64,000 nucleotides of DNA. It comes from Glycomyces algeriensis (GTDB lineage: Bacteria > Actinomycetota > Actinomycetes > Mycobacteriales > Micromonosporaceae). The DNA lies in the NCBI RefSeq assembly GCF_027622855.1, contig NZ_JAPZVR010000008.1:1-64000 (forward strand), in the 5' to 3' direction. The notes beneath the pieces were generated by a model. It was not told where the DNA came from, did no database searches, and saw only the letters and a program-made list of their open reading frames with translations. Positions 57,900 to 64,000 of the stretch are shown here, one piece after another. Within the stretch, counting starts at the first letter, position 1; every line of letters starts with the position of its first letter. The translations under genes and the position numbers were made by a program.

Positions 57900-60179
57900 A
57901 TGACTTGGGAGGCGGGCGTGCTGGTGCGCCGGGGCGGTGCGTGGGTGCGGGGTTGTGCGGCCGTGCTGGCGGTGGTCTGCGCGGTGCTGGCGGCGCCTCC
58001 TGCGGTGGCCGCGGCGGCCGAGGAGGACGAGGCCGCGGGCATCATCGTGGTCGGGGTGCCGGGCCTGGCGTGGACGGACCTCGACGCGTCGGTGACGCCG
58101 AACATGTGGGCGATGGCGGGCGCGGGGGCGTCGGCGTCGATGAGTGTGCGCACCATCGGGTCGTGGACGTGCCCTGAGGCGGGCTGGTTGAGCTTGGGCG
58201 CGGGTGAGCGCGCCGGCGGTGCGGCACCGCGCGATGCGCAGTGCGCGGCGCAGTCGCGGCTGCCGGCGCCGGTGGAGGACGGCGAGGGCTGGTCGGTTCA
58301 GGACTGGCAGGCGCTCGTGGACGCGAACGAGTCGTTCAACTACGGGGCCCGGTTGGGGTCGCTGGCCGATGCGGTGGCGGCGATGGCCGCCGAGCAGGAG
58401 GCGGCGGCCTTGGAGGCCGAGCATGCGGGCGAGCCGGTCGTGGCGCCTGATCCGGGCGCGTGCGTTGCGGGCATCGGCGACGGCGCCGCGCTGGCGGCTG
58501 CGGACACGGCCGGGCGGATCTCGTTCTGGGCGCCCGATCTGGGGTCGCTGGGTGCGGCCATGAGTACGTGCGATGTCGTGGTCGTGGACCCGGGCGTGAT
58601 CGTGGGCGACACGGCCGACGAGGCGCCGGACACGGGCACGGACTACGACCAGTTGGGTCAGGACGACGTCGGCGTCGGGTCGGACGAGCCGTCAGGTGCG
58701 CTCGACGACGGCGAGATCGAACCGGAGGCGGCGTCGGTGCGCGAGCGCGCGGCCGCCGAGGCCGACGCGGCGGTCGGTGAAGTGCAGGCGGCGCTCCCGG
58801 AGGACTGGCGGCTGCTGGTCGCCGGTGTCGCGGACGCGTCGGCGCCGTCGGCGCTGCACCCGGTCCTGTACTCGGGTGCCGGTGTGGAGCCCGGTGAGCT
58901 GACGTCGGCGACGACGGGCCGTGACGGGTACGTGCAGCTGGTGGACGTGACGGCGACGGCGCTGGGCGCGATCGGCGCTGACGTGCCCGCGACGGTGGCG
59001 GGCGCCCCGATCCAGGTGCTGCCCAACGGGGACCATTCGAGCGCGTCGGCGGTCGCGCGGGGCATCGACGAGACGGACGCGTCGCAGTCGGTGATCGCGG
59101 TGAGCTTCGTGTTCTATTCGGTGCTGTCGGCGCTGGGCGTGCTCGGGGTGGCGGCGGCCGTGTGGCTGCTGTGCGGCTCGGACCGGTTCCGGGGCTTGGC
59201 GCGGACCGTGTGCCTGGCGGTCGCGGCGATGCCGGTGGCCGGCGTGGCCGCGGGCATCCCGCACTGGTGGCGGGCCGAGGAGCCGACCCTGGCGTTCTGG
59301 GGACTCATCGCCGGCGGCATGGCCGTGCTCACGGTGGCGGCGTCACTGCCGTGGACGCGGCACGGCGCCCGACCGGTCCTGGTGATCGCCGGGACCGCGG
59401 CACTGCTGATCGCCGTGGACCAGGTGTCGGGCGCGACCTGGCCACTGCACACCCCCATGGGGTACACGGCGCAGGCCGGCGCGCGCTTCACGGGCCTGGG
59501 CAACTACGCGTTCAGCATCTTCGCGGCCGCCGTGATCCTCCTGGTCGCGTTCCTGCCGTGGAAGGGCCGGGCCCGCGTCTGGGGGCCGGTCGCCATCGGC
59601 GTGTGCGCGGTGGTCATCGTCGGCGCCCCGAACCTGGGCCGGGACATGGGCGGGACCCTCACCCTCGTGGCCGCCGGCATCCTGTGCTGCTGGAAGCTCT
59701 GGGGCCGCAGACTCACCGTCAAAGCCGTGATCCTGGCCGGCGGCATCGCGTTCGCGGTGTTCGCCATCGGCGGGTTCCTCGACTACCTGCGCCCGCAGGA
59801 GGACCAGACCCACCTGGGCCGGTTCGTCGGCTCGGTCCTGGACGGGACCGCCGCCAACATCCTCATCCGCAAGGCCGACGCCGCCATCGGCACCATCGGG
59901 CGCCCGCTCACCTGGTTGTCGCTCGCCGCGCTCATCGGCGCGGTCGTCATCTGGCGCCGCCGCGCCCCGATCCGCACCGACGAAGTGGGCGCCGCCGTCA
60001 TCGGCCTCACGGCCGTCGCCGTCCTCGGCGCGGTCGTCAACGACTCCGGGATCGCCGTCACCGGGTTCACCACCGCCCTCGGCTTCGGCCTCCTCGCCGT
60101 CGCCGTCGGACCCCGCACCGAACGTGCCCAACCGGCCACACCGGACCCCGTCGCAGCCGCCCCCACCAGCGGAAACTGA
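57900..60179 (+). CDS. Large membrane protein with AlkP-like extracellular domain
   Basis: 759 residues. A signal peptide (about 1-38, ending PPAVAAAA) precedes an extracellular domain (about 40-395) that begins IIVVGVPGLAWTDL...TPNMWAMA and GSWTCPEAGWLSLGAG; spacing resembles the start of alkaline-phosphatase-superfamily proteins, though the full metal set is not visible. The second half (about 400-740) has about ten hydrophobic segments with GRDMGGTLTL between them. Actinobacterial family of unknown function; an envelope enzyme or transporter is plausible. TAGACT six bases before the ATG marks a leaderless start. Confidence 0.75.
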   Translation: MTWEAGVLVRRGGAWVRGCAAVLAVVCAVLAAPPAVAAAAEEDEAAGIIVVGVPGLAWTDLDASVTPNMWAMAGAGASASMSVRTIGSWTCPEAGWLSLGAGERAGGAAPRDAQCAAQSRLPAPVEDGEGWSVQDWQALVDANESFNYGARLGSLADAVAAMAAEQEAAALEAEHAGEPVVAPDPGACVAGIGDGAALAAADTAGRISFWAPDLGSLGAAMSTCDVVVVDPGVIVGDTADEAPDTGTDYDQLGQDDVGVGSDEPSGALDDGEIEPEAASVRERAAAEADAAVGEVQAALPEDWRLLVAGVADASAPSALHPVLYSGAGVEPGELTSATTGRDGYVQLVDVTATALGAIGADVPATVAGAPIQVLPNGDHSSASAVARGIDETDASQSVIAVSFVFYSVLSALGVLGVAAAVWLLCGSDRFRGLARTVCLAVAAMPVAGVAAGIPHWWRAEEPTLAFWGLIAGGMAVLTVAASLPWTRHGARPVLVIAGTAALLIAVDQVSGATWPLHTPMGYTAQAGARFTGLGNYAFSIFAAAVILLVAFLPWKGRARVWGPVAIGVCAVVIVGAPNLGRDMGGTLTLVAAGILCCWKLWGRRLTVKAVILAGGIAFAVFAIGGFLDYLRPQEDQTHLGRFVGSVLDGTAANILIRKADAAIGTIGRPLTWLSLAALIGAVVIWRRRAPIRTDEVGAAVIGLTAVAVLGAVVNDSGIAVTGFTTALGFGLLAVAVGPRTERAQPATPDPVAAAPTSGN

Positions 60180-60234
60180 CCCGCGCACCCCGGGTCCGCC
60201 CAGCGCGGGCCCGGCGCCGGGTAGGGTGAGGCCC

Positions 60235-61014
60235 ATGCGCGTGGCCACGTGGAACATCAACTCGCTCAAAGCCCGCCTCGACCGGCTCCTCGCCTGGCTC
60301 GAGACCGCCGAGCCGGACGTGGTCTGCCTCCAAGAACTCAAATGCGCCGACGCGGACGTGCCGATCGAGGCGATCAGCGCCGCCGGGTACGACACGGCGT
60401 CGTGGGGCCTTGGCCGCTGGAACGGCGTCGCGATCCTCTCCAAGGTCGGCATCGCGGACGTGCGCCGCGGCATCAGCGGCCAGCCCGCGTTCGGCGACGA
60501 GACCGAACCGCGCGCGATCACCGCGACCTGCGGGCCCGTGCGCGTCCAGTCCCTCTACATCCCCAACGGCCGCGACGTCGCCGACCCGCACTTCCCGTAC
60601 AAGCTCGCGTTCCTCAAGGCCCTCGCCGCGGACGCCGCCGCCGACGCCGCCGGCGATCTCCCGTTCGCCGCCATGGGCGACTTCAACATCTGCCCCACCG
60701 ACGACGACGTGTGGGACGTCGACGAATGGCCGGGCACCACCCACGTCACCAAGGATGAACGCGACGCCCTCGCCGCCGTGCAGGCCGCGGGGCTCGCCGA
60801 CGTCTTCCCGCGCCCCCTCAAGCACGCGCACCCGTTCACGTTCTGGGACTACCGCAACCTCGACTTCCCGAAGAACCGCGGCCTGCGCATCGACCTGGCG
60901 CTGGCCAACCCCGCCTTCAAGGCGGCGGTCACCGACGCGTACGTCGACCGCAACGAACGCAAAGGCAAAGGCGCCTCCGACCACGCCCCCCTCGTGGTCG
61001 ACCTCGACCTGTAA
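60235..61014 (+). CDS. xth: Exodeoxyribonuclease III
   Basis: 259 residues, EEP nuclease closest to bacterial XthA. Seen: VATWNINSLKARLDRLL, CLQELKC (metal Glu), LYIPNGRDV, MGDFNICPTDDDVWD (Asp-x-Asn) and SDHAPLVVDL. Contains the extra FWDYRNLDFPKNRGLRIDL segment of XthA-type enzymes. Acts in base excision repair. ATG 60235 lies seven bases after TAGGGT; the frame upstream is open but Pro-rich and not part of the protein. Confidence 0.9.
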   Translation: MRVATWNINSLKARLDRLLAWLETAEPDVVCLQELKCADADVPIEAISAAGYDTASWGLGRWNGVAILSKVGIADVRRGISGQPAFGDETEPRAITATCGPVRVQSLYIPNGRDVADPHFPYKLAFLKALAADAAADAAGDLPFAAMGDFNICPTDDDVWDVDEWPGTTHVTKDERDALAAVQAAGLADVFPRPLKHAHPFTFWDYRNLDFPKNRGLRIDLALANPAFKAAVTDAYVDRNERKGKGASDHAPLVVDLDL

Positions 61015-61073
61015 ACCCGGCCGCCGCCCCGCCAGGGCGGACGACCCGACCCTCCGGAAGTAGACCTCCACCC

Positions 61074-62039
61074 GTGCGCAGCAAGCAGATCCTCCCCGTA
61101 GTACTCCTCGCCGTCCTCGTGGCGTTCTTCCCGGCGCCGGCCTCGGCCGAACCCGACGAGAAGACCCTCGAATCGGACCTCGCCGCGGCCATCGACAAGG
61201 TCGCCGACGCCGAGGACGCGGTCGACGCCGCCAACGCGCGCGCCGCCGAACTCGAGGTCAAGATCGCCGACACGCAGGCGCTGTTCGACGAACTCACCGT
61301 CGACCTCAACGAGTACGCGGTCTACCTCCACACCGAGGGCGAACTCGAGACCACCAACGCGATCCTCTCCTCCGAGAACAGCCGCGACCTGGTCGACGCC
61401 ATGACCTACACCGGGTTCCTCGGCAGCGAGCGCGCCGCGCTCATGAACGAGGCCGGGGCCCTCCTCGACGAGCTCGAGGCCCAGCGGGCCGCGCACGCCG
61501 ACGAGATCAAGACCGCCGAGGACGCCCTCGAGGACGCCGAGAAGGCCGCCGACGAGCTCGAAGAGCAGCTCGAGGACCTGCGCGCCGAAGAGGCCGCCGG
61601 GCCCGGCTCCGACGGCGGCGCCCCCGCCGCCGAAGGCTACGGCGGCGACGGCGGCGGCTGCACCGAGGACGACCCCACCACCGACGGGTGCCTCACCCCC
61701 CGCACCCTCCACATGTACAACGAGACCAAAGAGGCCGGGTTCGACCACTACGTGTCCTGCTACCGCTCCGGCGGCAGCGGCGAGCACCCGCTGGGCCGGG
61801 CCTGCGACTGGGCCGCCGACGAGTCCGGGTTCCAGAACGAGGACGCCTCCGGCTCCGACAAGGAGTACGGCGACCAGCTCGCCGCCTGGTACGTCAACAA
61901 CGCCGACAGCCTCGGCGTCGAGTACGTGATCTGGTACCGCGAGTTCTGGTCCTCCTCCTCGGGCTGGCGCTCCTACTCCGGCGCCGGCGGCGACCCCGCC
62001 TCCGACCACACCAACCACGTCCACGTCTCCATGCGCTAG
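61074..62039 (+). CDS. Secreted coiled-coil protein with conserved C-terminal domain
   Basis: 321 residues. Cleavable signal peptide (about 1-25, ending PAPASA). Residues 30-185 form coiled coil with very acidic heptads. A Gly-rich hinge (about 185-205) leads to a C-terminal domain (about 210-321) with LTPRTLHMYNETKEAG, HPLGRACDWA, EYVIWYREFWSS, and a final HTNHVHVSMR. That domain is the ARB_07466-like type seen in actinobacterial exported proteins; the His and Asp residues suggest a hydrolase-like metal site. The N-terminal layout recalls PcsB/NlpC-type wall-associated proteins. GTG start. Confidence 0.75.
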   Translation: MRSKQILPVVLLAVLVAFFPAPASAEPDEKTLESDLAAAIDKVADAEDAVDAANARAAELEVKIADTQALFDELTVDLNEYAVYLHTEGELETTNAILSSENSRDLVDAMTYTGFLGSERAALMNEAGALLDELEAQRAAHADEIKTAEDALEDAEKAADELEEQLEDLRAEEAAGPGSDGGAPAAEGYGGDGGGCTEDDPTTDGCLTPRTLHMYNETKEAGFDHYVSCYRSGGSGEHPLGRACDWAADESGFQNEDASGSDKEYGDQLAAWYVNNADSLGVEYVIWYREFWSSSSGWRSYSGAGGDPASDHTNHVHVSMR

Positions 62040-62050
62040 AAGGCGACACG

Positions 62051-62689
62051 ATGACCAGCATCCGCGACCAGTACCGCACCGCCGCCCGCACCGCCCTCGC
62101 CCTCGTCGAGGACACCGCGGTCGCCAAGGCCTGGGCCGAGCCGTCCGCGCTCGCGGGTTTCACCGTCGGCGGCCTCGCCGCCCACCTCGCCCAGCAGATC
62201 ACCTCGGTCACCGCCGGCCTCGCCGCCGACCACGCCGGCAAAGCGCACGTGACCCTGTTCGAGCACTACGACCGGGCCGCCTGGCTCGCCGCCGACCTCG
62301 ACAACGACTACAACACCGGCATCCGCGACGGCGGTGAGCAGGCCGCCGAAGCCGGACCCGCCCACGTCGCCGCCCAGACCCGGGCCGCCCTCACCGCGCT
62401 CGACACCGCCCTCGCCGTTATGGACGGCACCGAGACCAGCGGCAACACGCGCTGGCCGTACGCGATGACCCTCGACGACTTCCTGCGCACCCGCATCATG
62501 GAGATCGTCGTCCACGGCGACGACCTCGCCTACTCCGTCGCGATCGACACCCCCGCGTTCGACCAGGACGTGTTCGACACGGCCGCGTGGATGCTCGCCC
62601 GCCTCGCCGCCAAACGCCACGGCCAGGCGAACCTCGTGCGCGCCCTCGCCCGCGCCGAGCGCGCCCCGGAGTCCATCAGCGGCCTGTGA
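62051..62689 (+). CDS. Maleylpyruvate-isomerase N-terminal (DinB-like) domain protein
   Basis: 212 residues, four-helix bundle of the DinB/MDMPI_N superfamily. Helix 2 has VGGLAAHLAQQI (first His ligand) and a later helix has RIMEIVVHGDDLAYS (second His ligand) which in relatives bind a metal and use mycothiol. The C-terminal region (WMLARLAAKRHG) is also family-like. Starts 11 bases after the secreted-protein stop with GAAGGCG upstream. Mycothiol-dependent chemistry is plausible in an actinobacterium but not shown. Confidence 0.72.
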   Translation: MTSIRDQYRTAARTALALVEDTAVAKAWAEPSALAGFTVGGLAAHLAQQITSVTAGLAADHAGKAHVTLFEHYDRAAWLAADLDNDYNTGIRDGGEQAAEAGPAHVAAQTRAALTALDTALAVMDGTETSGNTRWPYAMTLDDFLRTRIMEIVVHGDDLAYSVAIDTPAFDQDVFDTAAWMLARLAAKRHGQANLVRALARAERAPESISGL

Positions 62690-62729
62690 CGCCCCGCCCA
62701 GGGTGTGGCCGCCCGCTTTCGGGGTGTGC

Positions 62730-62735
62730 TACGGT
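62730..62735 (+). promoter_or_regulatory. Putative -10 box of the DAHP-synthase leader transcript
   Basis: TACGGT, seven bases before the ATG of the leader peptide, which would be translated from the very 5' end of the RNA. The -35 region is not recognisable. Confidence 0.5.
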
Positions 62736-62742
62736 TCGCCCC

Positions 62743-62814
62743 ATGTCTACGGCAGTTCGTTGGTATCGCGGCTTTACGCCGGCTCCGGGTGGAGCCAGGC
62801 GGCGCACGCGCTGA
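62743..62814 (+). CDS. Aromatic-amino-acid leader peptide, 23 aa
   Basis: Short frame MSTAVRWYRGFTPAPGGARRRTR, ended by TGA at 62812. Trp7, Tyr8 and Phe11 stand within five codons, all three products of the pathway whose first enzyme, DAHP synthase, is encoded downstream. Clustering of the regulatory amino acids just before a set of alternative stem-loops is the mark of an attenuator leader peptide. It is too short to be found by length criteria. No relation to a known peptide is claimed. Confidence 0.6.
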   Translation: MSTAVRWYRGFTPAPGGARRRTR

Positions 62815-62867
62815 CCGACGAACACACCCGGAGCCAGCAAGGCAGCGACACGAGTCGCTGCCTTTCG
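62781..62867 (+). promoter_or_regulatory. Transcription attenuator in front of DAHP synthase
   Basis: Within the 256-base gap 62690-62945. GGCTCC (62781-62786) pairs locally with GGAGCC (62791-62796) around GGGT. Alternatively, GGCTCCGGGTG (62781-62791) pairs over 11 bases with CACCCGGAGCC (62825-62835). Just after this is a terminator hairpin: AAGGCAGCGA (62839-62848), loop CACGAG, TCGCTGCCTT (62855-62864), then TTC. Ribosome stalling at the Trp/Tyr/Phe codons (62761-62775) would change which helix forms. Which helix serves as antiterminator I cannot decide by eye. Confidence 0.55.
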
Positions 62868-62945
62868 TCGTAAGGCGGGGCCGGCACCGGGGAGACCACG
62901 AGTGGACGGGACCCGCCTCGCCACCAGAGATGGGAACCGCACCCG

Positions 62946-64000
62946 ATGACCGCCGACCGCTCACCGCAGACCAACGACCTGCGCGTCACCGCCTTCCAGC
63001 CGCTCGTCGCACCCGCCGCGCTCCGCGCCGAACTCCCGCTCGGCGACGCGCGCGCCGCCCTCGTCGAACGCACCCGCAATGAGGTCAAAGCCGTCCTCGA
63101 CGGCACCGACGACCGCCTCCTGGTCGTCGTCGGCCCCTGCTCCGTGCACGACGCGGTCGCCGCCAAGGACTACGCGCAGCGCCTCGCCGCCGCCGCGGCC
63201 CCGCTCGGCGACGCGCTCATGGTCGTCATGCGCGTCTACTTCGAGAAGCCCCGCACCACCGTCGGCTGGAAGGGCCTCATCAACGACCCCCACCTGGACG
63301 GCACCCACGACGTCGAGCTCGGCCTGCGCCTGGCCCGCCAAGTGCTCCTCGACGTCCTCGACACCGGCCTGCCGGTCGGCTGCGAGTTCCTCGAGCCCAC
63401 CAGCCCGCAGCACATCGCCGACGCCGTCTCCTGGGGCGCGATCGGCGCCCGCACCACCGAGTCCCAGGTGCACCGCCAGCTCGCCTCGGGCCTGTCGATG
63501 CCCGTCGGATTCAAGAACACCACCGACGGCGACCTGGCCTCGGCCATCGACGGCTGCCGCGCCGCCGCCGGCGACCACGTGTTCTTCGGCGTCGACGAGG
63601 ACGGGCGCGCCTCCATCGTCTCCACCAGCGGCAACCCCGACTGCCACATCATCCTGCGCGGCGGCCGCGGCGGCCCCAACTACGGGCCCGACGACGTGCG
63701 CGACGCCCTCGCGCTCCTGGCCAAGCACGACATGCCGCAGCGCCTCGTCGTGGACGCCAGCCACGCCAACTCCGGCAAGGACCACGTCCGCCAGGCCGAG
63801 GTCGTGCGCGAGGTCGCCGCCCGCATCGGAGCGGGGGAGCAGGGCATCGCCGGCCTGATGATCGAGAGCTTCATCGAACCCGGCCGCCAAGAGCCCGCCC
63901 CCCTCGAGACCCTCGTCTACGGCAAGTCCGTGACCGACGCCTGCGTCGGCTGGGACGACACCGAAGCGCTCCTGGGCGAACTCGCCGCAGCCGTCCGCCA
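62946..64000 (+). CDS. aroG: 3-deoxy-7-phosphoheptulonate (DAHP) synthase, class I; runs off the window
   Basis: 351 codons are in the window, starting at ATG 62946; the stop lies beyond 64000, though only a few residues should be missing since the family is about 350-360 long. Joins phosphoenolpyruvate and erythrose 4-phosphate, the first step of aromatic synthesis. Class I (AroFGH) motifs: VVGPCSVHD with the metal Cys, MRVYFEKPRTTVGWKGLINDP, EFLEPTSPQ, GARTTESQVHR, GFKNTTDG and DASHANSGKDH. Probably regulated by the leader and terminator just upstream; feedback control by an aromatic amino acid is also usual. Confidence 0.93.
   Translation, partial: MTADRSPQTNDLRVTAFQPLVAPAALRAELPLGDARAALVERTRNEVKAVLDGTDDRLLVVVGPCSVHDAVAAKDYAQRLAAAAAPLGDALMVVMRVYFEKPRTTVGWKGLINDPHLDGTHDVELGLRLARQVLLDVLDTGLPVGCEFLEPTSPQHIADAVSWGAIGARTTESQVHRQLASGLSMPVGFKNTTDGDLASAIDGCRAAAGDHVFFGVDEDGRASIVSTSGNPDCHIILRGGRGGPNYGPDDVRDALALLAKHDMPQRLVVDASHANSGKDHVRQAEVVREVAARIGAGEQGIAGLMIESFIEPGRQEPAPLETLVYGKSVTDACVGWDDTEALLGELAAAVR

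Follow-up and report, generated by a model that had tools for sequence, protein, structure and literature searches.

An aromatic leader peptide and a candidate chain of alternative helices upstream of the class I DAHP synthase gene aroF in Actinobacteria

The 64,000 nucleotide (nt) stretch of Glycomyces algeriensis DNA analyzed here (the window) ends within aroF, which encodes a class I 3-deoxy-D-arabino-heptulosonate 7-phosphate (DAHP) synthase. A sequence-only reading had described, upstream of this gene, a 23-codon frame with Trp, Tyr and Phe codons, an 11 base pair (bp) pairing that competes with a local hairpin, and a terminator-like hairpin. The question raised by this locus is how a ribosome stalled on such a frame could reach the expression of aroF. 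The described features are all confirmed. Codon conservation, covarying arms and placement before one gene make leader-peptide attenuation sensing aromatic amino acids a well supported reading of the sequence, and the leader appears to gauge Trp, Tyr and Phe together. A single leader peptide would then combine the signals of all three end products where the shikimate pathway begins, a step at which E. coli divides aromatic end-product control among isozymes and repressors. For the mechanism, a relay of mutually exclusive helices that would run from the stalled ribosome to aroF translation is the reading preferred here, and it is held with about even confidence.

The leader table comprises 94 leaders, 77 from loci matched by a covariance model (R1) and 17 others. 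Trp is present in 90, Tyr in 94, Phe in 93 and all three in 89, thus end-product codons are conserved 5′ of a biosynthetic gene, as is expected of an amino acid attenuator. The Trp position is shifted in some leaders (KYWRF, GYWRF), and four loci of one genus, relatives of Glycomyces, have leaders that lack Trp (L009, L010, L015, L016). The start codon is GTG in 66 and ATG in 28. A TAnnnT hexamer lies 5′ of the start in all 94, at a spacing of 6 nt in 24, 7 nt in 67 and 8 nt in three; because the start was picked among in-frame codons by the hexamer, this figure denotes its existence in each leader and is not an unbiased spacing. In the window the transcription start site is probably at or adjoining position 62743, which would make the leader open reading frame itself leaderless. 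Its translation is MSTAVRWYRGFTPAPGGARRRTR, with a W-Y-x-x-F pattern. The features of the locus are as follows.

62730..62735, + strand, −10-like hexamer TACGGT, 7 nt 5′ of the leader ATG
62743..62814, + strand, leader open reading frame of 23 codons, ATG start at 62743, TGA stop at 62812-62814
62761-62763 (W), 62764-62766 (Y) and 62773-62775 (F), + strand, leader regulatory codons
62755..62772, + strand, segment Z (62755-62764 plus 62769-62772), spans the Arg-Trp-Tyr codons and pairs with Z′ (minimum free energy structure, swap test)
62781..62791, + strand, segment A, pairs with C (perfect, 11 bp) or, through its first 6 nt, with B
62793..62798, + strand, segment B, local partner of A (swap test)
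62810..62823, + strand, segment Z′, covers the leader stop codon and bases 3′ of it, pairs with Z
62825..62835, + strand, segment C, alternative partners A and F
62839..62864, + strand, terminator-like hairpin D:E, 11 bp, loop ACGA, tail TCGTCG, covarying, absent in type 2 (below)
62874..62892, + strand, segment F, 62883-62891 pairs with C and 62874-62890 with H
62896..62923, + strand, segment H, 62906-62923 pairs with F and 62896-62915 with S
62932..62949, + strand, segment S, covers the end of the aroF Shine-Dalgarno region plus the start codon
62946..64000, + strand, aroF, class I DAHP synthase, continues beyond the window end

The minimum free energy of positions 62743-62872 has a z score of −4.77. 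The R1 model was built from 27 sequences, six near-identical loci having been dropped before the 27-row alignment, and in it both A:C and D:E covary. Conservation of the codons and covariation of the arms, the check that the sequence-only reading had proposed, are therefore both found.

That reading had also seen no obvious antiterminator and had allowed for a mechanism other than the textbook one, and this holds. In the trp and phe attenuators of E. coli the antiterminator overlaps the terminator. The present element resembles them in that a stalled ribosome would cover the first segment (here Z) and shift the downstream folding; unlike them, no overlapping antiterminator was found and the chain is longer. 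No shared partner of D that competes with the terminator stem was found in 30 sequences. An ordinary antiterminator is not predicted because the probability of D:E pairing is the same with the ribosome stalled upstream of A (mean 0.949) and at the stop codon (0.951) in 76 sequences; in L157 it is near zero in both states. The candidate antiterminator CGCTGACC:GGCAGCG was rejected: it is not retained in relatives with a changed terminator arm, and D:E pairing does not differ between the two ribosome states. A simple terminator scan (at least five T in eight) is negative at D:E because the T-tract is poor.

The conserved competitor of A:C is C:F, located past the terminator. Among 43 representatives, which were hand-picked for clade spread, the best-matching complement of C beyond the hairpin is 12–21 nt downstream in 36; in the others the distance is 4–8 nt (four), 27–29 nt (two) and 59 nt (L158). 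Compared with shuffled sequences the complement has a mean z of −1.7, with p < 0.05 in 18 of the 43, and is no better than the shuffles in six (L009, L010, L129, L140, L151, L158). In a swap test with 28 sequences, C pairs more favourably with the 41 nt downstream in its own locus than with those of other loci (−16.1 versus −13.7, 0/20000 permutations), and the controls, aroF codons and the next stretch, display no preference for the own partner. Compensating changes are seen in C/F pairs such as CCCGG/CCGGG (Glycomyces), CCCAG/CTGGG (Catellatospora), TCGAGCCGGC/GCCGGCTCGA (genus g4 of family f1) and CATCCCGG/CCGGGATG (L136). Since C is common to both, A:C and C:F are mutually exclusive, and predicted C:F pairing is lower when the ribosome is stalled in 78 of 87 sequences.

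Co-evolution tests further link F with C, H with F, and the aroF Shine-Dalgarno region with H. The A:B pairing gives 4/5000 in the swap test for the terminator-bearing type 1 and 84/5000 for type 2. For Z:Z′ the count is 0/5000 in 36 type-1 sequences, type 2 being uninformative, and the shuffle z is only −0.99. The HB:Zp row for type 1 is invalid, its energies being positive. Permutation counts keep the relatedness among sequences, with coding and non-adjacent pairs as the controls. One relay test preselected F by its pairing with C, while the 41 nt swap test and the hold-out (region R) did not. L158 is excluded from the relay tests, and the hold-out, from which 9 of 21 loci were dropped, contains L204, a genus-mate of L107.

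A second, terminator-less type (type 2) bears on the same point. Of 17 loci that carry a leader but have no R1 match, 14 lack D:E (L164-L168, L170-L178). There C pairs with F as a local hairpin of GAGCCG and CGGCTC spaced by 4–15 nt, and the bases just 5′ of CGGCTC covary with the pre-Shine-Dalgarno segment H (AAGC/GCTT, GGAC/GTCC, AGAC/GTCT, GAAC/GTTC). Type 2 retains the leader, A, C, F and H, therefore these constitute the core common to both types. C:F was considered as a terminator of type 2; by eye, a T-rich stretch follows the hairpin only in L164, L165 and L168.

In the proposed relay a ribosome stalled on the regulatory codons would occupy Z and alter the folding downstream, so that C would alternate between A and F, F between C and H, and H between F and S, through which aroF translation would be reached. 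The A:C versus C:F alternation is well supported, and the last step, from H:S to aroF translation, is weak. Two results weaken this last step: accessibility of the aroF Shine-Dalgarno region is unchanged between the states in equilibrium folding, and the H:S preference was not reproduced in the hold-out. If the relay is true, its series of alternative helices is longer than that of the textbook attenuator and shows a possible swap of a transcriptional for a translational readout.

A possible though rather less probable alternative is transcription attenuation at D:E with no overlapping antiterminator, F and H being minor. Here the A:C stem, adjoining D:E, would sterically block closure of the hairpin inside RNA polymerase, a step which we infer, and stalling would lead to read-through. 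The geometry is suitable: in 58 of the 71 predicted structures a gap of 0–1 nt separates the end of A:C from D:E, and in none is the gap above 3 nt. D:E is a covarying hairpin, and a review, in its available part, describes the C. glutamicum aroR leader as transcriptional. However the T-tract is poor, D:E is missing from the 14 type-2 loci, and C:F and F:H co-evolve past the terminator. Classical attenuation with an antiterminator that the predictions missed, e.g. a kinetic or protein-assisted one, is unlikely. Equilibrium folding does leave out the co-transcriptional order, and CGCTGACC:GGCAGCG could pair in the window sequence, but this pairing is lost in relatives with an altered terminator arm, D has no common partner, and D:E pairing is constant.

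The A–F family might instead act post-transcriptionally on mRNA processing or decay, with C:F and D:E as one long hairpin, and not on initiation. C:F encloses D:E with a conserved tail between them, and the Shine-Dalgarno effect is absent at equilibrium; this account is nevertheless improbable, as it leaves the F:H and H:S preference unexplained. That a chance frame and chance pairings have arisen in GC-rich DNA is favoured by base composition alone, and conservation and covariation reject it almost completely. Nascent-peptide arrest was also considered; the bases that pair in A and B encode the conserved APGGA stretch. The gap from stop codon to C is 8–15 nt in 70 of 77 loci, which is about where the footprint of a terminating ribosome would end.

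The sequence-only reading knew of no described single leader that reads all three aromatic amino acids for this enzyme in an actinobacterium; a leader before this gene does have a precedent. The aroR leader of Corynebacterium glutamicum was reportedly treated by Neshat et al. in 2014. In the available portions of two papers, aroR (Phe-Tyr-Phe) precedes aroF, and stalling under Phe limitation raises transcription (PMC11802643, PMC4046766). Both are thus aromatic-codon leader peptides before an actinobacterial class I DAHP synthase gene. Compared by description and not by sequence, the present element differs from aroR in having Trp besides Tyr and Phe in nearly all leaders, in segments F and H, and in its terminator-less type. 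Loci of genus g297, inferred to be Corynebacterium (L158-L160, L163), have R1-like leaders with WRFYF, which contains Phe-Tyr-Phe. Among mainly open-licence papers no Trp-Tyr-Phe version, wider family outside Corynebacterium, or downstream helices were found described. Leaderless cysteine-rich small open reading frames in mycobacteria have been proposed to attenuate downstream genes (PMC4633059); as far as the accessible text goes these are likewise short and leaderless, with cysteine codons and other genes. The accessible part of a Streptomyces lividans study catalogues eight leaders, none before a DAHP synthase gene (PMC8079986), and that of a 2005 actinobacterial survey does not report conserved structures for the pathways of other amino acids (PMC1262725). 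The leaders in these two (trp, ilv, leu and others) are similarly leaderless peptides with terminators. New here are the unchanged D:E probability, the candidate chain from C through F and H to the Shine-Dalgarno region, and Trp-less leaders before genes other than aroF.

The element is widespread in Actinobacteria. An aroF match is present in 22 of 41 genomes, and among these the leader is found in all 19 that belong to the genus as well as in L020 and L021; none was seen at L022, where the aroF identity is 44%. Further named carriers are Catellatospora, Cellulosimicrobium and two actinobacterial metagenome-assembled genomes. R1 matches 11 of 396 genomes of a phylum sample (two falsely), 49 of 296 of a class sample, 4 of 81 in genus g297 (one falsely, E 0.05), and 78 of 298 of an order sample, in which 170 genomes have a class I aroF over the cut-off and 78 of these an R1 match. 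Downstream aroF is found in 44 of the 46 loci first checked, in all 21 class-level loci obtained directly, and in none of 14 weaker class-level loci fetched afterwards. Of about 92 R1-negative genomes with aroF, 20 loci were hand-picked, and 17 have an aromatic leader (none in L179, L180, L182). Upstream regions of L049-L102, except L067, were left out, these being mostly non-actinobacterial by title. Matches judged false are L112 and L113 (aroF absent from the fetched stretch, L113 tRNA-like by eye), L162 (E 0.05, leader absent by eye), and L215, L217 and L218 (no leader). Weak opposite-strand matches (18–31 bits) at G857:C8, G920:C12 and several Glycomyces loci are expected because the element arms are near-palindromic. 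No family of Rfam 15 exceeds its gathering threshold in positions 60000-64000 of the window or in eight further loci, and annotation of the element in many families of Actinobacteria would be possible. A sub-threshold Rfam gyrA match over the F-H hairpin (62868-62936, 18.5 of 45 bits) is taken as chance.

In 11 loci, ten from family f103 and one from f105 (L205-L214, L216), the gene that follows the element is not class I aroF. These 11 leaders contain Phe in 11, Tyr in seven and Trp in none. Downstream genes were checked in five of the 11, those of L210 and L212 being cut by the fetched stretch, and are DAHP-synthase-like/chorismate mutase fusions or a lone chorismate mutase. The DAHP_synth_1 domain is present in L205, L212 and L216 and is below the cut-off in L210; chorismate mutase CM_2 is present in three of the five, i.e. 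L205, L216 and, alone, L214. Trp-less leaders before chorismate mutase-type genes constitute a natural test of the sensing. Several class I aroF leaders of family f105 are of the VRRYPYF- or RYF-type, with no Trp in the regulatory stretch (L185, L186, L188-L195, L197, L199, L201, L202).

The genome also encodes a class II DAHP synthase (G000:C12:429183-430466, 626 bits). The element of L043, from a record titled Sphaerisporangium cinnabarinum, is near-identical to those of Cellulosimicrobium (L042, L044, L045), and the label or placement of this record may be wrong.
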